Shown here in pieces: positions 3,850-54,264 of a stretch of DNA of 64,000 bases. Every line of letters starts with the position of its first letter. Position 1 is the first letter of the stretch. The position numbers were made by a program, and so were the translations under genes. The stretch is from Lepus europaeus (Eukaryota; Chordata; Mammalia; Lagomorpha; Leporidae). The stretch lies in NCBI RefSeq assembly GCF_033115175.1, contig NC_084836.1:83604253-83668252 (forward strand), in the 5' to 3' direction. The notes under the pieces were generated by a model. That model was not told the DNA's origin and did not search any database. It saw nothing but the letters and a program-made list of their open reading frames with translations.

Positions 3850-4440
3850 GGCGGCTAGGCTGGCCCGGTGCGCACTGGCCCCGGAGCAGACTCCTCCAGG
3901 AGCCGGGGCTGCGCTGCCCAGACAGCCCTGGCGGAGACGAGCGAGGGTGGACACGCATGGAGGCGCCTTCACGGGCGTGGGGACTTTGAGCCGCACAAGG
4001 ACAGAGAGGGTGCGAGTTGGTGGAGGTGTCGCTACCGGGCCGAGCCTCGCGCTGAGCGTCCTTGGCGGGACGCGAATGGGGTTCCAGTGGCAGGGGTCAG
4101 CCAAGTTGCCCCGTCAGGAAACGCGCGCCCACGGTCCGCGCTGTGACGCCGAAGGCCGGCTCCCCTGCTCGCGCCAGTGGGGGAGGCTCTGCTGGAAGGA
4201 AAAAAAGACGCTTGTTTTCAACCAACTCGCATACGGTTGAGTTCCAGAGTATTTACAGCGATGTGGGTTGCATTGAGTTCCAAAGTTCAGAATCTGCCTT
4301 ACTGGGATAAGAGGTAAGAGACCTTTGCTCAGAGGCTTAAGTGTATGCAAGAGACAGGAGAGGAGAGGAGGGGAGGGGGGAGGGGGAAGAGAGAGGAGAG
4401 GAGGGGAGGGGAGAGAATTTATAACACATCTCACACTTCC
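3850..4440. other. Distal CpG island flank and GA-rich tract
   Basis: The CpG-rich part ends near 4190. It is followed by about 150 bases of ordinary sequence and a GGGGA/GAGAG purine tract (4353-4414) just before an L1 tail. A potential splice donor (ctgcag|gtgagg near 3829) exists on the plus strand, but no plus-strand coding exon accompanies it. Confidence 0.5.
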
Positions 4441-4445
4441 ATATT

Positions 4446-4890
4446 TTTTAGAAAGCTTTTATTTAATAAATATAAATTTCAGAAGTATAACTTTTGAATT
4501 ATAGCGGTTCTTCCCCCGCCTCGCGCTCCCACCCCCAAACCATCCCACCTCCTACTCCCTCTCCCATCCCATTCTTCATTAAGATTCATTTTTAATTATC
4601 TTTATATACAGAAGATCAACTGTATGCTAAGTAAAGATTTCAACAGCTTGCACCCACACAGACACACAAAGTATAAAGCACTGTTTGAAGACATGTCTTA
4701 CTGTTAATTCTCATAGTACAAGACATTAAGGACAGAGATCCTACAAGGGGAGCAAGTGCACAGTGACTCCTGTTGTTGATTTAACACTTGACACTCTTAT
4801 TTATGACGTCAGTGATCACCCGAGCTTCACATCTCCATATATATGCAGTCTCCTCCCTTTCCACTGTAGTATGAAGAGTTAGGCTCTACA
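4446..4890 (-). mobile_element. L1 3' end, 5'-truncated, antisense
   Basis: It starts with the antisense L1 3' terminus (agcttttatttaataaata) and runs through the C-rich complement of the purine tract (4509-4560), the aagattca...tctttatata block and the gactcctgttgttgat block. Divergence is higher than in the 6.1 and 44.7 kb copies and it shares the aatttcagaagt subfamily variant with the fragment at 7231. No target-site duplication found. The 5' limit is approximate. Confidence 0.85.
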
Positions 4891-4923
4891 CAAGAAAAGC
4901 ACTCTTGGTAGAAATGAACACTT

Positions 4924-5192
4924 AATTTTTTTTAAATTATTCATTTGAAAGGCAGAGTTCCAGAGAGAGGGGCACACACACACACACACACCTTCCATCT
5001 GTTGGTTCACTTCCCAAATGGCCGCCAATGGCTGGAGCTGGCCAGGCTGAAGCCAAGAGCCTGGAACTTCTCTCAGTCTTCCATGTGGGTGGCAGGGCTG
5101 TCCTCTGCTGCTCTCCCAGACATATCAGCAGGGAAGTGGATCAGGAGTGGAGCAACCGGGACTCACTCGGTGAACCCAGTCTCAATGCCGTG
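4924..5192 (-). mobile_element. Old CSINE, antisense
   Basis: The tail complement (aattattcatttgaaaggcagag) at 4935-4957 is followed by a CA microsatellite grown in the SINE pyrimidine region (4974-4991), then the body and core. Heavily diverged. The head is not recognisable beyond about 5190. Confidence 0.8.
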
Positions 5193-6084
5193 GAGCACAT
5201 CTGTTTGCCACTGCTGCTGTCTGCCCAGAGCTCTTTCAAGTAATGTCAAATAAAAATGTGGCACTGCTGGAGATTCTGATGACAACACAAGACATCTGCC
5301 ATTATTATTTTTATTAGAATTTTTTTTTAAAGAAAATTAACCAATGTGCCGAGAAGGTGGCCAGTCCGGGGCTAAGGATGCAAGGGACCAGAGCAGAAGC
5401 AAGGTTTATGGAAAAGTCTTGATACAAGGGCTCAGCCCAAGTCTGAGTCCCCTCAGTTACTGCCCAGAGGCTCTCATTTCTGCTGAGAAATTTGGCTTTT
5501 ATCTCCCTATTGACTCCACACCTTACCCTCCTAGATTCCATCTGTTTGTGGTGCAAAGTTTTCTTACTTGGAGCCCTTCAGCTCCTCCTCCTCGGTTCTC
5601 TTACGTTTCCTCTGTGTTTTGCATCAAAGCACGCAGCTGGTATGAAGCAGTACCACATGGTTCTTCCCACTCTATATTGTCACTTGAGAAAAATGGCAGT
5701 AAATGTAAAAATTGCATTAGATAGAGTCACAATCATGGAGAGCATTTCAAAAGCAGTGGCACAGACAGAATCTGTCTTTAGAAAAATAGATGTGAAGAGC
5801 ATCAAATAAGTCAATTTAGAAGATTATGGGTATGGGGAAATAGTGCTGCTAATGCAGCTAAATCTCTCTGAAAACCAACATGAAATTACCATCTATTTAG
5901 AGAAATTTATTAATTTTTTTTCTGAAACCACAGAGCAATATTTTATTTCCTAAATAAACTCCAAAGATGAGATGATGTTAAATGTTGAATATTATACTTT
6001 GCTATTGGTTTATCCCTTCTGAAACTCAAGGTGAAACTGATTACCATGATAGTGGGTATAGGGAGGTGGGACCTTTAAGAGGTG
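5193..6084. other. Intergenic, no gene seen
   Basis: AT-rich single-copy-like sequence. ORFs here (up to 126 codons at 5344-5724) have no recognisable domain, codon bias or splice context. Confidence 0.5.
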
Positions 6085-6983
6085 GTAGGGGGTTGACATT
6101 GGGCCCAGTGGTTAACTTTTTTTTTTTTCTTACTATTATTCCCACTTTTAGTTGTTTATTTATTTTTATTGGTTTCTTTTTTTAAAAACTTTTATTTAGT
6201 AAATATAATTTCCAAAGTACAGTTTATGGATTACAATGGCTTTTTCCCCCCATAACTTCCCTCCCACCCGCACCCCTCCCATCTCCCGCTCCCCCTCCCA
6301 TTCCATTCACATCAAGATTCATTTTCAATTATCTTTATATACAGAAGATCGATTTAGTGTATATTAAGTAAAGATTTCATCAGTTTGCACCCACACAGAA
6401 CATAAAGTGTAAAATACTATTTGAGTACTAGTTATAGCATTAATTCACATTGGACAACACATTAAGGACAGAGATCCCACATGAGGAGTAAGTACACAGT
6501 GACTCCTGTTGTTGACTTAACAACTGTTTTTTATGGCATCAGAAATCTCCCTAGGCTCTAGTCATGAGTTTCCAAGGCTATGGAAGCCTCTTGAGTTCAC
6601 TGACTTCGATCTTATTTAGACAAGGTCATAGTCAAAGTGGAAGTTCTCTCCTCCCTTCAGAGAAAGGTACCTCCTTCTCTGATGGCCCGTTCTTTCTGCC
6701 CAGTGGTTAACTTTGTGACAACTACATTCCCTATCAGAATGCCTGGTTTGAGTTCTGGCTCAGCTATGGTTTCCAGCTCCTGCTACTGCACACTCTTGGG
6801 AGGCAATGGATGATGATGGCTCAAGTACTTCAGTCCTTGCCACCAAAGTGGGAGACCCAGATGGAATTTCCCATTCCTGGCTTTGGCCTGGCCAAGATTT
6901 GGCTGTTGTGGGCATTTAAGGAGTGAACCAGCAGATGGAAGACCTCTGTCTCTCTACCTTTCAAGTAAAAATTTAAAAAAAGA
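6085..6983 (+). mobile_element. Old CSINE split by an L1 insertion
   Basis: The SINE head (gacattgggcccagtggttaac, 6095-6116) and body (6715-6983, through agtgaaccagcagatggaag to a tttcaagtaaaaattt tail) are separated by the L1 at 6120-6697. Joining across the L1 at its duplicated target gives a continuous SINE, so the SINE is older than that L1. Confidence 0.85.
6120..6697 (-). mobile_element. L1 3' end with target-site duplication and probable 3' transduction
   Basis: Antisense, 5'-truncated rabbit L1 inserted inside a CSINE. A perfect 17-bp duplication (gcccagtggttaacttt) flanks it at 6103-6119 and 6698-6714. The normal L1 terminus is at about 6187. Between it and the outer poly-T (6120-6130) lie about 55 bases that are not L1, which fits read-through past the weak L1 polyadenylation site to a downstream one. 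Confidence 0.88.
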
Positions 6984-7069
6984 GAAGTGATTCTGCAGAG
7001 CCCTCATGCATGGATCAATCTATTCATATATTAATGGGTTACTAGATATCGAGTTACTATGGGTATGGC

Positions 7070-7376
7070 TTTGTTGTAAAGTTGCATTCTCTGTAGCTTC
7101 CTTATGCTGTTTTGCTGTTGATGCCCTCCACCAAGTAATGCTGCAGCGAGAAGCCCTCGCAGATGCCAGGGCTGTGCTCTTGGACTTTGTAGCTTTTACA
7201 ACCATGAGCCAAATAAACGTCTGTTCTATTTTTTTAGAAAGCTTTTATTTAATAAATATAAATTTCAGAAGTACAACTTTTGGATATAGTGGTTCTTGAT
7301 GAGCCAAATAAACTTCTATTCTTTATAAATTATCCAGTGTCAGGTATTTTGCTATAGCCATGGAAAATGGACAAAG
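7070..7376 (+). repeat. MaLR/MLT-type LTR remnant
   Basis: The 3' part is diagnostic: catgagccaaataaac, then ctttataaattatccagtgtcaggtattttgctatagc and gaaaatggacaaagac. This is the typical end of mammalian MLT/MST LTRs, including the aataaa signal. The 5' boundary is vague. A 68-bp L1 tail interrupts it at 7231-7298. Confidence 0.65.
7231..7298 (-). mobile_element. Minimal L1 tail insertion (68 bp) with target-site duplication
   Basis: Antisense L1 terminus (agaaagcttttatttaataaatataaa region) of the same subfamily as the 4446 copy. The host LTR sequence atgagccaaataaac is duplicated on both sides (7204-7218 and 7299-7313). This shows a real but extremely 5'-truncated retrotransposition into the LTR. 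Confidence 0.8.
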
Positions 7377-43919: not shown

Positions 43920-44740
43920 TTGACAGACAACATTGTATGTTTCCATTGTGTATGAGTTTTTCAACTACTTTTTGACGTATAGTTGTCATACAGCAAGCTA
44001 TTCCAAGTGTGCCATTTCATGTATTTTGACACAAATGTATGCAATGAAGCTATCATCAGAATCAAGAAAGTGAGCATTTTCATCAATGCCAACCATTTCC
44101 TCACACCCCTTTGCAATCTCTTCTTCCCTTCCTGGGTAGCTACCCATCTGCTTTCTGTCACTACAGATGTTTTCATTTTCTGGAAACTTATATAAATAGA
44201 GTAGTACAATATGTATTGATTTGTATCTGGTTTCTTTCATTCAGTGTAATTATTTTAAGTTTTATCTGTGTTGTTGCATGTATCAATAATTCTTTTTTAT
44301 TGTTGTATTTTTTCATTAAATGCTTGATATCATTCATCAGAGAGGCCATCTGGGCCTGGAGTTAGATTTGTGGGAACAGTTTTTAATATGAACTTAATTT
44401 GTTTAATAGACATAGAGTTATTTAGGGTATCTGTTTCTCTTTGAGTGAGATTTAGTATGTATCTTTCAAGGAATTTGCCCATTTCAACTAATTTTTCAAT
44501 TTTTGGTATGACGTTTTTCACAACATTTGTTACATTCTTATAAAAAGAAGGTAAGATTTTAAGAAATCTTAAAAAGCTATCTTAGTATTTTAGTATCTAT
44601 AGTATTGTCACATCATTTAATTGTGAGGTAATCCAATTTATTGATCTTATAAATGAACTGACTTTTGGTTTTGCTGATTGTCTGTGTTCCTTTGGCTTTC
44701 AATATCTGATTATTTTTCTCAGTATCATTCTGTTATTTCT
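43920..44740 (-). mobile_element. Ancient L1M, ORF2 part, interrupted at 44740
   Basis: The minus-strand translation at 44521-44330 gives EMGKFLERYILNLTQRE and PTNLTPGPDGLSDE, the L1 reverse-transcriptase start region (normally ending SPGPDGF). Below it, ttcattcagtgtaatta and tgttgcatgtatcaataatt are typical old L1 sequence. The element resumes at 51256 on the far side of the composite L1. Confidence 0.75.
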
Positions 44741-45539
44741 TTTTTTTAACTTTTATTTAATGAATGTAAATTTCCAATGTACAGCTTATGGATTACAATG
44801 GCTTCCCCCTTCCATAACTTCCCTCCCACCCGCAACCCTCCCCTCTCCCATTCCCTCTCCCGTTCCATTCACATCAAGATTCATTTTCAATTCTCTTTAT
44901 ATATGAAAGATCAATTTTGTATATATTAAGTAAAGATTTCAACAGTTTGCACCCACATAGAAACACAAAGTGAAATATACTGTTTGAGTACTAGTTATAG
45001 CATTAAATCAAAATGTACAGCACATTAAGGACAGAGATCCCACATGAGAAGCAAGTGCACAGTGACTCCTGTTGTTGACCCAACAAATTGACACTCTAGT
45101 TTATGGCACCAGTAACCACACTAGGCTCTTGTCATGAGTTGCCTAGGCTATGGAAGCCTTCCAAGTTTGCCGACTCTGATCATATTTAGACAAGGTCATA
45201 AAAGACAGGGTGAGGATAGTAACCAATGATCCTAAGAGTGGCATTTACCAGGTCTGAACAATTATACAGCATTAAGTGGGGAAGAGGACCATCAGTACAC
45301 ACACGTTGGGAGTAGAGCCATTGGTGGTAGAGTAGAGGTTATGATTACAAAGGAATGAGGCCCAAGTGCGCTAGACAGGGTCTAGAACAAAGGACAGAGT
45401 CATTATTAGAGGAGCTAAGAAAGGTGCTGTCTAAGTTACAATTAAGTTTTCTGATTTAGAGGCAAATAGAACCTGACAGAAGGGGCCTGGTAATAATCTG
45501 GTTGGCTTTAGGCCTTGTAAATTAAGAGGCCAAGAACTA

Positions 45540-46084
45540 TCTATCTCTTCACATGGGGTACATCCTAAGGGAGGTGTGAACCTCCTAGGGGAAGGCACTC
45601 TGTTGACTTTCATTACTTAGCTGGCCTGGAAGGAGAGCTGGCCAGGTAAAGGCAGGTGGCATCTCTAACAAGAAATTTATGGTTCTGCCTGCAATGTTGC
45701 TGACCCTGCTTGGCCGTCCCCTCAGCTGCAGTGGTCACTTTGGAAGTTGGGCTGAGTGAAGGGCTTTTCAGCTTAGAGCCAATAAGATCTGTGGCTCTGA
45801 CCTGGGCATCCTTCGACTCCAGGGCAGGTCCATTTCCAGTGATCCAACTCTTGGCAGAGCTGCCAGGGCTCTTCACAAGTTGACTTCTGCTGAAGCCCAG
45901 GCTTACCACATTGAAAGCCACTGCAGTGGACTGGCCTGTTGGGTCTCCTTGAGGGCAGATCACTGTACAGATCAGCCATTAATAGGCCTGCCACCCATTG
46001 CTTCTGATGCCGAGCTTTCTTTTCCTCCTGGTTTGTGTTAAAGCAGACCAGAGGATGCAAGTCAAGGGAGTGCCCAAGTCCCAT
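45540..46084 (-). pseudogene. Class I ERV gag nucleocapsid / protease remnant
   Basis: The minus-strand translation contains two retroviral zinc-knuckle-like motifs (45824-45925): FQCGKPGLQQKSTC, with the histidine replaced by leucine, then CQELDHWKWTCP. Beyond it, across frame changes, lie TDLIGSKLKSPSLSPT (linker-like), NIAGRTINFLLE followed by a decayed active-site position, PGQL, and TPPLGCTP. That order (NC, linker, protease) is typical of gamma-type endogenous retroviruses. Stops and frameshifts are present and the DTGA catalytic motif is not intact, so it is non-functional. It lies in the same sense as the surrounding L1 element. Confidence 0.68.
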
Positions 46085-47253
46085 CTCTAATCTTCGGTGG
46101 CCTGAACTACAAGTCTATAGTCACAGGCATGTTCTGTAGTAGTTTTTCTAAGGTAGACAATACCTATGAGGAAAATCATGTTCTCACTTTAAAACTTTCT
46201 TTCCCTTTGGTCTGAAAGGGAGGTTTTTTCTACTTACTGCTTACTTCGCTGATGGCAAAGTGAATCTAGCTATGAGATTATAATTTAAGCTCTTATTTTG
46301 GCTATGCTATCACAGAAAAATGTTAGCCATCTCTTTTATAAGGTCTAAAGATTAAATTGTGTGTCCTACTGATTCCTTCATAATAGAATTAGTTTCCTAC
46401 CTTGAAGAGAATAGAGAAATGAAAGAACAAGTTGGGCTTAGAATAGAGAAATGAGGGAGCAAGTCCTAGATCCCTTGCTGACAATAGCAATATTACATGA
46501 ATACTTAGCAAACAGTTTCAACCATTAGATAACAACTTAAGAAAACATTTACCAGAAGGTCCAATGCCTTCTCTAAATTTTAAGAATCATGTATTTGGAA
46601 ACACCTCTTAAGTATCTAACATGGTGTAGTTTGTTTAACCAGTAAACTTAAGCACAACCATATAAAATATTTTTAGTTTCTTTCTACCAACAAGTATAAA
46701 ACATATGATGCAGAAATTCAGGTCACATGAATAAAAATGTATCTTTGATTAATTTTAGCAGCTTAAATTTATGGACAATCTTATCTATAAGCCAATTAAA
46801 ATAAAACTCTTAATGAAATTTTCCCATGTGGACATACAATATGTACACACATATAACATAGCATAGTAGACCAATATAGCAATTTTAATAATAGCTTTTA
46901 AAATCTTTAACTCTTTTTGTAGATTGCCAATTGATTTGAATTGCTTTTTGTTTTTAGTAACCTCAGTTAAGCATACTTTCTCTCAGTTGGTACTGTTAAT
47001 ACATTATTGGCTTCATCTGTTTACAGAGCCATCCCAAAGTACTGAATACAATAGAAGTGGCTGGAAAAAGTCCATAGGAACCTATAGGAGGACAGCTAAA
47101 CACAGAACCAACAACGCTTTAGTTTTATGAGCAGCAAGTCATATATAACTGTGGATGACAAAAGACTTTAAGTTGCCATGTTTAAAATTATAAACTCATC
47201 AAACAACAAGAGGCACTTGCTTACTTCACAGTATTTTTGAAAGCACCTGTAGG

Positions 47254-48117
47254 GTATCAATGTCAGCACACTTGGTAAAGTGATAAGTATAAATACACAA
47301 CCGATCAAAAAGATAGGGTATGTGTCGAAGAGATTTCACAAATAAGACCAGTGTAAGCAAATAATGAAGGATAGAATTAAAAGGGAGAGTATGATCCTGC
47401 GGGGGAAGCAGGACACACAGCAGACTCATAGAATGGCAAATGCCCAAAACAGCACTCCTGCCTCAGAATCAACTCTTGGGACATTCGGATCTGGATAAAA
47501 GGTCCATGAGGGTCTCACAGGCATGGAAAGCCATGACATGGTGGCAAAAAACAATCTAAATGAAAGATCCTGGTGAACAGGACCCCAGCAGAAGGAACAG
47601 GCCATCAAGGAGAGAGGTGCCTTTCTCTGAAGGGAGGAAGGAACCTCCACTGTGATACGGCCTTGACTAAACAAGTTCAGAGTCGGTGAACTCAAGGGGC
47701 TTCCATAGCCTAGACAGCTCATAGCAAGAGTCTCGGGTGATTGCTGACATCATAAATAAGAGTGCCAATTGTTAAATCAACAACAGGAGTCACTGGGTAC
47801 ATGCTCCCCACGTAGGATCTCTGTCCTTAATGTGTTTTACTATGAGACGTAAAAACACTACTAGTCGAACAGTACCCTATACCTTGTGCGGTTGTGTGAG
47901 TGCAGCCTGTTGAAATCCTTGCTTAGTATATACTAAGTTGATCTTCAGTATATGAAGGTAATTGAAAATGAAACTTGATAAAGGGCGGGATGGGAGAGGG
48001 AGAGGGAGAGGGGAGGACCACGGGAGGGAGGGAGGTTGGGGGGGGAAGCCACAACAATACAAAAGTTGCACTTTGTAAATTCACATTTATGAAATAAAAA
48101 ATAAAAAAAATTAAAAA
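47254..48117 (+). mobile_element. 5'-truncated L1 with 14-bp target-site duplication, nested
   Basis: Flanked by aaagcacctgtagg at 47240-47253 and 48118-48131. It includes the L1 3' UTR block (gcttccatagcctagacagc, gtcaacaacaggagtcact-like 47775-47795), the purine tract (47986-48045) and a gaaataaaaaataaaaaa tail. Opposite orientation to the composite L1 it entered. Confidence 0.94.
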
Positions 48118-48131
48118 AAAGCACCTGTAGG

Positions 48132-48651
48132 ATTTTACAAGTATTTAACCCTTTAGGCCTCTGGGGCTTTCTCATTAAGATAACTATCATGTCTAGTAAC
48201 ACAAGATCATTAGACTTTTTAATTCTCAAACATTTGTATTAATAGCATTTTCCATTATAGAAACTTAAAATTTAGAACCATGTCACATCTTGACAGTACT
48301 TCTAATATAATCCAAATAGCCTGATTAGTTGGTGTCTCTATAAGATGAGAGACATAGGTCCTTCGATTTTTTTTTTCAGTTGGGCCCAAACTGGAAAAAC
48401 CAAAGTCCAAGACTTACTGGAAATTTTAGAGTCCAGATTGTTTGAAACTTTGATTTTTTGAATGCCTGTCAAGAATGCCAAGAAGGCTCAAAATCCAAAA
48501 TATCTGGTTGAAATAAGATTCCTTAAAATCATGACATAACATAGACCAAATTTGATCATTGTTACAAGGTGATTATTCAAATCTTTGAAAATAAGCACAT
48601 ATTTAAATAACCCATAGCACTTAATAAAAATTCAGCTGTTTTTGAACAATT
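48132..48651 (-). other. Non-L1 segment of the composite element
   Basis: AT-rich sequence between the nested L1 and the nested CSINE, and part of the segment that replaces ORF2. It has no long ORF and no recognisable motif. The equivalent stretch on the other side of the nested L1 is 46085-47239. Both may derive from the same captured source as the gag/protease remnant. Confidence 0.5.
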
Positions 48652-48669
48652 AGAATTTAACAGACATCA

Positions 48670-49004
48670 GCTGGCGCCATGGCTCAACAGGCTAATCCTC
48701 CACCTTGCGGCGCCGGCACACCGGGTTCTAGTCCCGGTCGGGGCACCGATCCTGTCCCAGTTGCCCCTCTTCCAGGCCAGCTCTCTGCTGTGGCTAGGGA
48801 GTGCAGTGGAGGATGGCCCAAGTCCTTGGGTCCTGCACCCCATGGGAGACCAGGAGAAGCACCTGGCTCCTGCCATCGGAACAGCGCGGTGCGCTGGCCG
48901 CAGCGAGCTATCGCGGCGGCCATTAGAGGGTGAACCAACGGCAAAAGGAAGACCTTTCTCTCTGTCTCTCTCTCACTGTCCACTCTGCCTGTCAAAAAAA
49001 AAAA
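48670..49004 (+). mobile_element. Young CSINE2 with perfect 18-bp target-site duplication, nested
   Basis: Flanked by agaatttaacagacatca at 48652-48669 and 49005-49022. It includes the long head form (cggcgccggcacaccgggtt and ggtcggggcaccgatcctg) and ends cactctgcctgtcaaaaaa. Unmutated CpGs and the long duplication mark it as one of the youngest insertions here. Confidence 0.97.
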
Positions 49005-49135
49005 AGAATTTAACAGACATCAAGAGAACATAATAGATTACTTTAACACATTGCTTTAACAGAGAATCAGATTTTAATTCTATGTCAAAGAGAAATGGAG
49101 CTTCCTGTGATCTTTTGCTCTGAGGTTTCCTTCCT

Positions 49136-50170
49136 TTACCTTCTTTCATATTGATGACCATGTTTCTGTGTTTCTGTGTGTAACACATCTTTAAGCATCT
49201 TTTGCAGGGCAGGACGAGTGGCAACAAATTCTTTCAGTTTCTGTTTGCTATGAAAAGTCTTAATTTCACCTTCATTCACAAATGAGAGCTTTGCAGGATA
49301 TAATATTCTGGGTTGGCACTTTTTCTCTCTTAGTACCTGGGCTATGTCTTGCCATTCCCTTCTAGCTTGTAGGGTTTCTGATGAGAAGTCTGCTGTGAGT
49401 CTAATTGGAGATCCTCTGAGAGTAATCTGACATTTCTCTCTTGCACCTTTTAGAATCTTTTCTTTATGTTTCACTGTGGTGAGTTTGATTACGACGTGTC
49501 GTGGTGAGGATCTCTTTTGGTCATGTTTATTAGGGGTTCTATGAGCTTCCTGTACTAGGATGTCTCTGTCCTTCTCCAGACCCGGGAAGTTATCTGCAAG
49601 TATCTAATTAAAAAGGCCTTCTAATCCTTTCTCTCTCTCCATGCCTTCAGGAACTCCTAGAACCCTAATGTTGGTTTTTTAATAGTATCCTGTAGATTCC
49701 CAACAATATTTTTAGATTTCTAATTTCCTCTTCTTTTCTTTGGTTTGACTGTATACTTTCCTGTGCTCTGTCTTCTAAGTCCGATATTCTCTCTTCTGCT
49801 TCCCTCATTCTGTTTTTAAGGCTCTCTAATGTGTTTGTCATTTGATCTATTGAGTTCTTCATTTCATTATGATTTCTCGTCACTATCACAGTTTCTTGTT
49901 CTGCTAGTTGTTTCATTTCATTTTGATTCCTCCTTAATATTTTATTCTTGCGTGAGATTTTCTATCTTGCCCATTAAAGAATTCTGTAGTTCAATAATTT
50001 GTTTTTGAGAACTTCTTAATGTTCATATCAATTTTTTTGAGATCTGCTTCTTGCATTTCTTTTATCTCATCATCTTCATAATCTTGAATTGGGGTGTCTT
50101 TTTCATTTGGGGGCGTCATAGTGTCTTCCTTGTTCTTGTTACCTCGGTTTTTGCGTTTGTTGTTTGGCAT
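49136..50170 (-). pseudogene. L1 ORF1 (RNA-binding chaperone), frameshifted
   Basis: Starts MPNNKRKNRGNKNKED at 50170. The N-terminal acidic region is followed by a coiled coil (MREAEERISDLEDRAQ, about 49800-49750) and the conserved C-terminal RNA-binding block (ILKGAREKCQITLRG, LQARREWQDIAQVLRE, PAKLSFVNEGEIKTF), ending QYERR at 49136. The frame changes at least twice (near 49950 and between 49665 and 49474), so this copy cannot make an intact protein. ORF1p normally forms trimers that coat L1 RNA. Confidence 0.88.
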
Positions 50171-50359
50171 ATTGGAGATACTCTTTGGTTTCTTCACTGT
50201 GGTGTTTTTTCTTTTTATACTATGAGGCTAGATTAAGTGACTGTCTGCTTTTGATGGAGCCTTAGAGCCTTGAGATGGGTGTGGCCTGAGAGCTCTGTTT
50301 GGTTCCTCAGGGTTGAGGGTGTGTCAACGATGACACTCCCAGGTTAGGCGTGGTAAATC

Positions 50360-50423
<64 letters not shown>

Positions 50424-51239
50424 TCGGGAAGTAATTCCGCACAGCTGAACGTAATTGGAGGTAGTTAGCAGGCAAATGATATACCCACAGGAGCCAGAGA
50501 TCAGAAACTCTTTCCCAAGGACCACACAGGGAATCTGTGCTGGCCTCAGTGTGGGCTCAAATTCTCCTGCAGTATCCCACTGGGTTGCCAAGGTTACCAA
50601 ATTGTAGTGTCTCTGGAGAGTACTCACGTGAATTCTGTGAGTTCTCTCCCCCACCGTCTCTTTTTTACAGTCTCAGTTCATTAGCACCACACATTCATTA
50701 GATCCTAATCTCCTTTTATTTCAACACCCCCCTCCCGCGAGTCAGCTGTTTCTGCTGGGCTCAGGGCTGGTGCAGACCTGAGGTCGCCCTGCTTATGATG
50801 TATGTCCAAAATGGCGCCTGCTCTTTGTCTTGCTTGCTTTTGAGAGGTGAGTGGAGAGAGAGAAACTTGTGTCTGTATCGGTCACCTTTTTTTTTTTTCT
50901 CTCTCTCTCTTCTAGTTAGCCTGGTGAACTTTTCCCCATGGGGTTTCAAGCCTCGTTCCCTCTAGTCTCCTCTTTCTGCTTTCCCGCTGGTGTCCCGGGC
51001 TATTGAGGTTCGGCTCACCTCGCGTTCCAGCGCTGGTGTGTTGAGTCTGCTGCTGGTGTCCCGAACTTGGGCTCCCACGCTCTCCACGCAGGACCACTGT
51101 GAATCACTAGTTCTGGTTTCCTCTGCTGTTTCTTCCCCTGCTCTTCCCTGAATCTGCAGTATCTCCACTTTTATTAAACTGTCTCTCCCCCGGACTATCA
51201 GTGTGCTCCCTTCCTATTCCGCCATCTTGCCGCTCTCCC
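50171..51239 (-). promoter_or_regulatory. L1 5' UTR/internal promoter of the composite element
   Basis: The first bases contain CAAGATGGCGG (51221-51230 on the minus strand), the YY1-type site at the start of mammalian L1 promoters. CpG-containing sequence follows (50740-51220). A (TTTC)n/(TC)n microsatellite lies at 50359-50424 just before ORF1. There is no 5' truncation relative to the YY1 site. Confidence 0.8.
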
Positions 51240-51255
51240 TCATTCTGTTATTTCT

Positions 51256-52049
51256 AACTTAATTCCTGTGTGGACAGAGAATGCAGGTTGTGTGACTTGA
51301 GTACTTTTTTTTTTTTTTTTTTTGCTTATTTGTTCTACCAAGTACTGTGAAAGGTACTGGAATCCCTAACTGTGATTGAGGATTCGTCTATTTCTCTTTG
51401 CCCTTCTGTCAGTTTTGAATTCATGTTTTCGGATGCTCTTTGGCTAGGCATATAAATGGAAAGGATTATTATATGGTCTTAATGCACTGATTCCCTTACC
51501 ATGACGAGCTAACCATCATTGTCTCTGAAAACAGTCTTTGCTCAGAATCCTACTTTGCATCATTTACTAAAGCCACTTCTGTTCTAAATAGTGTGATGGA
51601 CATGCCCAGATGACCCCATTGTTATGCTGCTGGGTGACATGACAAGTGCAGGTGAACTTCTAATTTGTGCCAACCAAAGCCTGTGGAAAGGGAATGGGAG
51701 GTCACTCCTATTTTGCCTTTGTTTTTTACCATGAATAGCTTTTGTTGCTACCTCTTCAAGTTTATTAATCTTTTTTTTTCTTTGAGGTCTAATTTGCCAT
51801 TAATTCTCTTCAGCATAATTTTTTTATCTTAGAAATTAGTGTTTTATCTCTGGAAGTTGGATTGGGATGTTTTTCTTCAATATCTCTACTTAACTTTTGA
51901 ATGTATGGGATACAATTATAATTATAGTTTTTTATTGTCCTAATTTGAACATCAGGGGAAGTTCTGAGTTACCTTCTTTCTTTTTTTTTTAAAAAAGATT
52001 TATTTCTGAGTTACTTTCAGTTGACTGATTTCTTCTGCTGACTATAATT
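51256..52049 (-). mobile_element. Ancient L1M, ORF1 part
   Basis: Continuation of the L1M that was split by the composite element. The minus strand near 51830-51730 translates to a coiled-coil-like ELMANLDLKEKKINKLEEVA, comparable to the INGRLD..EEKISELED part of L1 ORF1. Includes a T-run at 51307-51323. Confidence 0.55.
51976..52003 (-). mobile_element. Tail-only retrotransposon micro-insertion
   Basis: A poly-T plus aaaaaagattta (the complement of a CSINE terminus), flanked by ttctgagttacYttc at 51962-51976 and 52004-52018. It appears to be a retroposition truncated to its last ~25 bases. Confidence 0.5.
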
Positions 52050-52060
52050 TTTTTTTTACT

Positions 52061-53589
52061 TTTATTTAATGAATATAAATTTCCAAAGTACAGCTTATGG
52101 ATCAGTGGCTTCCCCTCCCCCCATAACTTCCCTCCCACCCGCAACCCTCCCCTCTCCCGCTCCCTCTCCCCTTCCATTCACATCAAGATTCACTTTCAAT
52201 TCTCTTTATATATGAAAGATCAATTTAGTATATATTAAGTAAAGATTTCAACAGTTTGCACCCACATAGAAACACAAAGTGAAACATACTGTTTGAGTAC
52301 TAGTTATAGCATTAAATCACAATGTACAACACATTAAAGACAGAGATCCTACATGAGGAGTAAGTGGACAGTGACTCCTGTTGTTGACTTAACAAATTGA
52401 CACTCTTGCTTATGGCATCAGTAATCACCCTAGGCTCTTGTCATGAGTTGCCAAGGCTATGGAAGCCTTTTGAGTTCACCGACTCTGATCATATTTAGAC
52501 AAAGTCATAGTCAAAGTGGAAGTTCTCTCCTCCCTTCAGAGAAAGGCACCTCCTTCTTTGATGGCCCATTCTTTCCACTGGGATCTCACTCACAGAGATC
52601 TTTCATTTAGGTCATTTTTTTTTTTTCCAGAGTGTCTTGGCTTTCCATGCCTGAAATGCTCTCATGGGCTTTTCAGCTGGATCCGAATGCCTTAAGGGCT
52701 GATTCTGAGGCCAAAGTGCTGTTTAGGACATCAGCCATTCTATGAGTCTGCTGTGTAGCCCACTTCCCATGTTGGATCATTCTCTCCTTTTTTTTTATTC
52801 TATTGGTTAGTATTTTCAGACACTAGTCTTGTTTATGTGATTCCTTTGACTCTTAGTCCTATCATTATGATCAATTGTGAACAGAAATTGATCACTTGGA
52901 CTTGTGAGATGGCATTGGTACATGCCACCTTGATGGGATTGAATTGGAATCCCCTGGTATGTTTCTAACTCTACCATTTGGGGCAAGTCCGATTGAGCGT
53001 GTCCCAAATTGTACATCTCTTCCCTCTCTTATTCCCACTCTTATATTTAACAGGGATCAATTTTCAGTTAAGTTTCAATACTTAAGAAGAACTGTGTATT
53101 AATTACAGAATTCAACCAATAGCATTAAGTAGAACAGACAAAAAAATACTAAATAGGATAAAGTATTAAGTTGTTCATCAACAGTCAGGGCAAGGGCTGA
53201 TCAAGTCATTGTTTCTCATAGTGTCAGTTTCACTTTAACAGGTTTCCTTTTTGGTGCTCGGTTAGTTGTCAATGATCAGGGAGAACATATGATATTTGTC
53301 CCTTTGGGACTGGCTTATTTCACTCAGAATAATGTTTTCCAGATTCCTCCATTTTGTTCAAATGACCGGATTTCATTGTTTTTTACTGCTGCATAGTATT
53401 CTATAGAGTACATGTCCCATAATTTCTTTATCCAGTCTACTGTTGATGGGCATTTAGGTTGATTCCAGGTTGTAGCTATTGTGAATTGAGCTGCAATGAA
53501 CATTGAGGTGCAGACCGCTTTTTTGTTTGCCAATTTAATTTCCTTTGGGTAAATTCCAAGGAGTGGGATGGCTGGGTTGTATGGTAGGG
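52061..53589 (-). mobile_element. 5'-truncated L1 with ORF2 C-terminus and full 3' UTR
   Basis: The minus-strand ORF2 C-terminal region (WNQPKCPSTVDWIKKLWD, YSIEYYAAVKNNEI, 53510-53360) is followed by about 1.2 kb of 3' UTR and the aataaaagt terminus at 52061. A short T-rich duplication (ttttttttact, 52050-52060 and 53590-53600) may be its target site. It provides the internal reference for a normal ORF2-to-3' UTR junction. Confidence 0.9.
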
Positions 53590-53600
53590 TTTTTTTTACT

Positions 53601-53927
53601 GGGTCTTTTCATGTCTGGTGATCATTGCATGGATGATGGGCATGGTAAAGTTTATGTTGCTGGTCATTGATATTTTTCACTTCTATATATTTTCTCTTTA
53701 ATTCTTTTCTAGGGATACAATTCAGTTACTTAGACACACTGTTATCCTTTTGACTCTTATTTTAGAAATTTGTTAAGCAAGATCAGAGAAGTTAATTTCT
53801 CTATTGTCAAGGCAAAACTCTCCCGAGTACACTGCCCAATGCTTCTGTGAATCATGAGGTCATTCAATCTGGCTTGTGGGAAAAGGCACTGGTCCCGACC
53901 CTGAACATGTTCTCTCTAATCCTTTTC
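53601..53927 (-). mobile_element. Ancient L1M 5' UTR, first segment
   Basis: Contains agtacactgcccaatgcttc, tgaatcatgaggtcattcaa and ctggcttgtgggaaaaggca, blocks of the old mammalian L1 5' UTR in antisense. It continues at 54280, 54640 and 55114 between CSINE insertions. Confidence 0.6.
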
Positions 53928-54264
53928 TTTCTTTTTTTTTTAAGATTTATTTATTTATTTGAAAGTCAGAGTTACAGAGAGAGAAAAGGATAGGCAAAGA
54001 GAGATAGGTCTTCCATCCGCTGGTTCACTCCCCAAGTGGCCACAATGCCCGGAGCTGTGCCAATCCAAAGCCAGGAGCCAGGAGCTTCTTTGGGTCTTCC
54101 ACGTGGGTGCAGGTGTCCAAGGACTTTGGCCATCTTCTACTGCTTTCCCAGGCCACAGCAGAAAGGTGGATCGAAAGTGGAGCAGCCAGGTCTCAAACCA
54201 GCGCCCATATGGGATGCCAGCACTGCGGGTGGCAGCTTTACCCGCTATGCCACAGCGCCAGCCA
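53928..54264 (-). mobile_element. CSINE with 15-bp target-site duplication
   Basis: Flanked by tctctaatccttttc at 53913-53927 and 54265-54279. Complete and near consensus. Confidence 0.95.

Follow-up and report, generated by a model that had tools for sequence, protein, structure and literature searches.

The window analysed here, a 64,000-nucleotide stretch of Lepus europaeus contig NC_084836.1, carries on its minus strand a composite L1 element in which ORF1 is kept and ORF2 is missing. The element lies within a perfect target-site duplication (TSD), TCATTCTGTTATTTCT, identical at 16/16 bp as an initial annotation of this DNA had read it, and consists, from 5' to 3', of an L1 5' untranslated region (UTR), ORF1, 40 nt from the start of the L1 ORF1-ORF2 spacer, a foreign insert and an L1 3' terminus with poly-A (Table 1). 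The same plan is found elsewhere in the genome. We describe a family built from the 5'UTR, ORF1 and 40-nt spacer of an ordinary L1, ~2.65 kb of non-L1 DNA and a terminal 460-nt piece of L1 3'UTR carrying poly-A, and this unit has spread to thousands of places by an L1-type mechanism, as its TSDs, poly-A ends, 5' truncations and 5' inversions show. The window element very probably belongs to a non-autonomous L1 derivative that is present in high copy number and is of the half-L1 (HAL1) type.

Both junctions of the insert recur across the assembly from which the window comes (649 contigs, 2.93 Gb in all), for which the best 40 places per DNA query were scored and candidate numbers are first-look counts, unverified as copies. 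Allowing at most 2 mismatches, a word of 36 bases that spans the insert/3'UTR junction matched 16,619 times (8,601 forward, 8,018 reverse), and its reversed control 0 times. A query from the 3' part of the insert gave 5,543 candidates, the 40 scored being the window itself and 39 others at 97%. From this search 20 copies were fetched, and the insert/3'UTR junction, read base by base, is present in all of them. At the other end, the ORF1/insert junction is identical in 10/10 copies printed; as a query it returned 2,216 candidates, with 40/40 scored places, window included, spanning the junction at ≥98%, and a query of ORF1 plus junction returned 3,070, with 40/40 (its own locus included) running through it. 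To avoid selection on the 3' end, five extra loci were picked solely by the 5' junction, and in four of these the insert continues as far as the 3' junction, with internal deletions in L049 and L050. A word spanning the ordinary spacer between ORF1 and ORF2, taken from one subfamily, matched 1,184 times (control, 0), a figure not comparable with 16,619 because the latter includes 5'-truncated copies.

In 11 of the 20 fetched copies the 5'UTR, ORF1, insert and 3'UTR stand in order, with ORF1 partial in L027 and the insert interrupted by later insertions or partly deleted in L015 and L025. The remaining nine are truncated, inverted or rearranged; L017, L022 and L023 are 5'-inverted. A query from the ORF2 C-terminus found no match between ORF1 and 3'UTR in the 11 copies, the space being taken up by parts of the insert or later insertions. 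A separate observation concerns L009 (sense 4035-7187), where the L1 5'UTR runs straight into the middle of the insert, ORF1 having been lost; this copy lies behind an old L1 3'UTR piece.

Family members with a poly-A tail and their own TSD lie at many loci, a feature of HAL1 elements. Private end repeats of 11-15 bp flank 10 of the 15 copies whose ends could be tested, compared with repeats of at least 11 bp in 1 of 210 pairings when ends were swapped between loci, and nine of the ten private repeats start with A. The initial annotation had called for a search for recurrent junctions with TSDs of their own, and these ten copies supply them within a single assembly. Private TSDs, repeats starting with A and 5' inversions are what L1 target-primed reverse transcription would be expected to leave, so the enzymes of ordinary L1s are the likely agent.

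The origin of the L1 parts was traced with two ordinary L1s, L043, found via the end of ORF2, and L054, found via ORF1; among eight ordinary L1 upstream stretches fetched, L043 alone reached ORF1. In both comparisons, homology with the composites extends beyond the ORF1 stop codon for 40 nt of spacer and then ends, and in both ordinary elements ORF2 starts 28-29 nt beyond this breakpoint (start codon assigned by eye). L054 and the composite L020 are 95.3% identical in the 5'UTR, 94.9% in ORF1 and 92.5% in the 40-nt spacer, after which L054 has ORF2. The ORF1 of L043 is 93.4-95.2% identical to that of nine composites, and its 5'UTR just 70-71%. A second ORF1 locus fetched beside L054, L055, is itself a composite. 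The family therefore joins the 5' half of an ordinary L1 to a middle of foreign DNA and closes with an L1 3' end; it lacks the ORF2, with endonuclease and reverse transcriptase, that marks an autonomous L1. Past the breakpoint the insert has no homology to L043 or L054 and is colinear in other copies; the window holds no second copy of it. On the 3' side, the initial annotation had the match to the nearby ordinary L1 end near 45208; our alignment with 52050-52509 places the end of homology at ~45200.

ORF1 is identifiable in the window and, in part of the family, intact. In the window it is split over three frames (50170-49136), and its C-terminal 155 aa hit two Pfam families, L1 ORF1 RBD-like (E 1.3e-20) and dsRBD-like (E 7.2e-28). 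The nearest named protein, an Oryctolagus UniRef entry (P0001), is 89% identical; searched against the hare assembly, P0001 is 92% identical to the best of 147 scored places (62,224 first-look candidates), which may reflect a leporid other than Oryctolagus or an atypical copy in P0001. Four of the 11 ordered copies have an open frame of 345-348 aa, all four being among the 10 in which ORF1 is full length; L027 holds part of ORF1 only, with no frame of 60 aa. The ratio of non-synonymous to synonymous polymorphism (pN/pS) is 0.30 among the four open copies, 0.34 among ten copies and 0.33 among eleven with the window added, compared with 0.77-0.94 in shifted frames. Variants common to at least two copies divide 20 synonymous to 22 non-synonymous in frame, and 9-10 to 32-33 in shifted frames. 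ORF1 evolved under constraint while the family spread.

Table 1. Features of the composite element and its surroundings in the window
Feature	Position	Strand	Basis
TSD, 5' side of element	51240..51255		Identical 16-bp repeat of 44725-44740
L1 5'UTR, with a word at 51221-51228 taken as YY1-type	50171..51239	-	Sequence; 5'UTR of composite L020 ~95% common to ordinary L1 L054
L1 ORF1, broken in this copy	49136..50170	-	Pfam PF02994 and PF17490; tblastn of P0001; other copies
First 40 nt of L1 ORF1-ORF2 spacer	49096..49135	-	L020 aligned to ordinary L1s L043 and L054
Foreign insert in place of ORF2 and upstream 3'UTR	45201..49095	-	~2.65 kb after subtraction of two nested elements
GC-richer insert part, gag/protease-like frames (by eye)	45201..46114	-	Many stops in 21/21 sequences
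Terminal 460 nt of L1 3'UTR with poly-A	44741..45200	-	92% to 52050-52509
TSD, 3' side of element	44725..44740		Identical 16-bp repeat of 51240-51255
Nested 5'-truncated L1, private to this copy	47254..48117	+	14-bp duplication 47240-47253 / 48118-48131, read by eye
Nested element taken as CSINE, private to this copy	48670..49004	+	18-bp duplication 48652-48669 / 49005-49022, read by eye
Ordinary L1 3' end (ORF2 C-terminus and 3'UTR), for comparison	52050..53589	-	ORF2 C-terminus assigned by eye

Several further parts of the initial annotation are borne out in the window copy. An L1 5' end with a YY1 site had been noted there, and a word of YY1 type stands in the 5'UTR; ORF1 is supported by the Pfam matches, and the normal L1 3' terminus with poly-A by its likeness to the ordinary L1 nearby. 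The ORF2 C-terminal piece of that ordinary L1 has no match in Pfam. Two nested insertions had also been marked in the insert; we take them for an L1 fragment and, presumably, a CSINE, and each has its own duplication (14 and 18 bp). Both are missing from full copies of the family and therefore arrived later at this locus. From the ORF1 stop to the 3'UTR the distance is 2,680-2,700 nt in the eight copies measured, namely the 11 with ORF1 and insert minus the interrupted or partial L015, L025 and L027. Within the window 5'UTR, ~105 nt (~50593-50697) are unmatched in full-length copies, with breaks at 5'UTR query positions 542/648, and a separate simple-repeat run lies at ~50356-50425.

Mean pairwise Kimura two-parameter (K2P) distances among copies are 0.033-0.039 for ORF1, the 3'UTR and two parts of the insert, and 0.021 for the part used to pick the copies; over 1,152 nt, L025 has a nearest relative 98% identical to it. 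The family is abundant and, at ~3-4% mean pairwise divergence among sampled copies, fairly young. At an assumed rate of 2-4 substitutions per billion sites per year, and given a biased sample, the spread would date to ~4-10 million years ago.

The recurrence of the junctions bears directly on two other accounts of the locus. As its alternative, the initial annotation had offered a local nested insertion, in which an ordinary L1 lost ORF2 here, after insertion, by recombination with a nested endogenous retrovirus (ERV). The flanking TSD by itself would look alike under such a history, and two nested elements do sit in the insert; however, both junctions recur at many other loci, with private TSDs in two-thirds of the testable copies (10/15), and on these grounds we reject the account as almost certainly wrong. 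Copying of a single chimaeric locus by segmental or tandem duplication would fit the closeness of the copies (mean pairwise K2P 0.021-0.039), but not the distinct TSD at each of 10 loci, nor the 5' truncations, inversions and poly-A ends on many contigs; it is rejected for the copies with private TSDs, and its overall probability is very small. As for the founder of the family, template switching twice within a single round of L1 reverse transcription would, in one step, yield one chimaera inside one TSD pair, but genomic rearrangement followed by transcription accounts for the same structure equally well, and we consider double switching unlikely.

A further alternative concerns the source of the insert, which the initial annotation took for ERV gag/protease sequence. 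Any retroviral likeness, itself faint, is confined to the ~0.9 kb that adjoins the 3'UTR; the remaining ~1.7 kb is AT-rich DNA (31-33% GC) with almost no CpG. The frames at 45613-46114 contain degenerate words, picked out by eye, which we take to be zinc-knuckle-like and protease-like, and they stand in the order expected if a genuine class I ERV gag-pro remnant had been captured by L1. Against this, the gag/protease-like frames had no match in Pfam and nothing retroviral in PDB, where two rows (E 0.75 and 0.8) were bacterial binding proteins; a protein database search with the gag-like frame gave no retroviral match, and one with the frame spanning the ORF1 end and insert start no informative match. 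A translated search against 12 gag p30-bearing loci of the same genome found nothing above chance. One weak tblastn match (L035, L036; E 0.48) falls just behind p30, but none of that stretch's other matches has a better position (the best, E 0.27, lies before p30), and the AT-rich part of the insert reaches E 0.20 and the reversed control E 0.029. No confirmed match came from collections of viral contigs and genome contigs, from which records of the source genome may be missing. There is no pair resembling long terminal repeats (LTRs) among the 20 largest of 48 direct-repeat families at 44000-54000, a single LTR being unrecognisable without a repeat library, and no source locus for the insert was found among the best 40 places scored per DNA search. 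Many stops in the retrovirus-like end are common to 21/21 sequences compared, so this stretch was dead before the sampled copies spread; pN/pS over its first 342 nt (0.63) does not fall below that of the other frames (0.54, 0.51). We judge a retroviral origin of the ~0.9 kb to be about evenly balanced, and capture of a class I gag-pro remnant in particular to have slightly less than an even chance. The ~2.7 kb of non-L1 DNA that had been described is indeed foreign, with a gag/protease remnant that is read by eye and unconfirmed; and the proposal of a HAL1-like, non-autonomous family with ERV sequence in place of ORF2 stands for the ORF2-less mobile unit, through its junctions and TSDs, with its ERV component unproven, no retroviral match being significant in Pfam, PDB, protein databases or the 12 gag loci.

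As an observation on the genome at large, a Gag_p30 search of the assembly gave 1,454 first-look candidates, of which the best 150 scored all exceeded the cut-off, and many of these have long open frames. These matches represent a large load of gammaretrovirus-like ERVs.

Returning to the HAL1-type reading, some of our data weigh against it or limit its reach. The 20 fetched copies are the best matches to the window's insert and hence a non-random sample. Five of them were excluded from the TSD test for rearranged 5' ends, five of the 15 tested have end repeats of just 4-8 bp, and the 11-bp threshold was chosen after the values were seen. In L053, one of the loci picked by the 5' junction, the match covers 114 nt at the start of the insert and then stops. 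Seven of 11 copies, like the window, lack a fully open ORF1, and recombination with ordinary L1s could supply part of the signal of constraint on ORF1. Finally, what is seen of the mobilization are the hallmarks of target-primed reverse transcription, from which we infer dependence on ORF2 protein in trans.

A half-L1 of this kind would work as follows. The composite RNA would make its own ORF1 protein, which would act in cis on that RNA, and the ORF2 endonuclease and reverse transcriptase of ordinary L1s would work on it in trans. The insert would be a passenger or spacer without protein function, part of which may stem from a long-dead retroviral remnant. A bolder version, which we hold to be quite improbable, is that a lagomorph L1 lineage divided in two, giving an ordinary L1 and a half-L1 parasite of high copy number with a selected ORF1, the insert aiding its RNA through stability, export or ribonucleoprotein packing; if true, such an advantage would be why the same insert recurs in full copies. 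An abundant, young half-L1 with a constrained ORF1, found together with L1s of the parent type, makes a natural test case for the retention of ORF1 by a non-autonomous element. It bears on the cis preference of ORF1 protein, on the loss or replacement of L1 ORF2 and on how unrelated DNA joins a mobile unit. In such genomes, L1 ORF1 counts also include elements unable to move by themselves.

Among known systems, HAL1 is the closest. As described in excerpts of three papers, HAL1 elements are L1 derivatives that encode ORF1 only and depend on full-length L1 (PMC5753468, PMC5322556, PMC4161310), and a table excerpted from a fourth has young HAL1 families under marmoset and guinea pig and none under rabbit (PMC3183009). 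The Lepus family shares with these, as so described, its descent from L1, possession of ORF1 only, poly-A, TSDs and the expected use of L1 enzymes in trans. Its ORF1 is L1-like and coding (Pfam matches, open in 4/11 copies, pN/pS ~0.33), and ORF2 is absent from 11 copies, the breakpoint lying before it. It differs from HAL1 as so described in the ~2.65 kb of foreign DNA where ORF2 was. This large insert sets the family apart from described HAL1, and it may well be on record already in Repbase, Dfam or Yang et al. 2021; a lagomorph half-L1 composite was not found among the literature matches listed, which is no proof of its being unpublished.

Ordinary lagomorph L1s share ORF1, the start of the spacer and, in L054, the 5'UTR with the composites (just ~70% in L043), and the ordinary L1 at 52050-53589 shares their 3' terminus; unlike the composites, ordinary L1s have ORF2. 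SVA and LAVA are further counterparts. SVA contains an ERV-derived part, and neither SVA nor LAVA is known to encode a protein. Both are composites, as the Lepus family is, and both are reported to be moved by L1 proteins in trans (PMC7353768), as the Lepus family probably is. The Lepus family differs from them in keeping an L1 5'UTR and a constrained ORF1 that is open in some copies, and hence a protein gene of its own.

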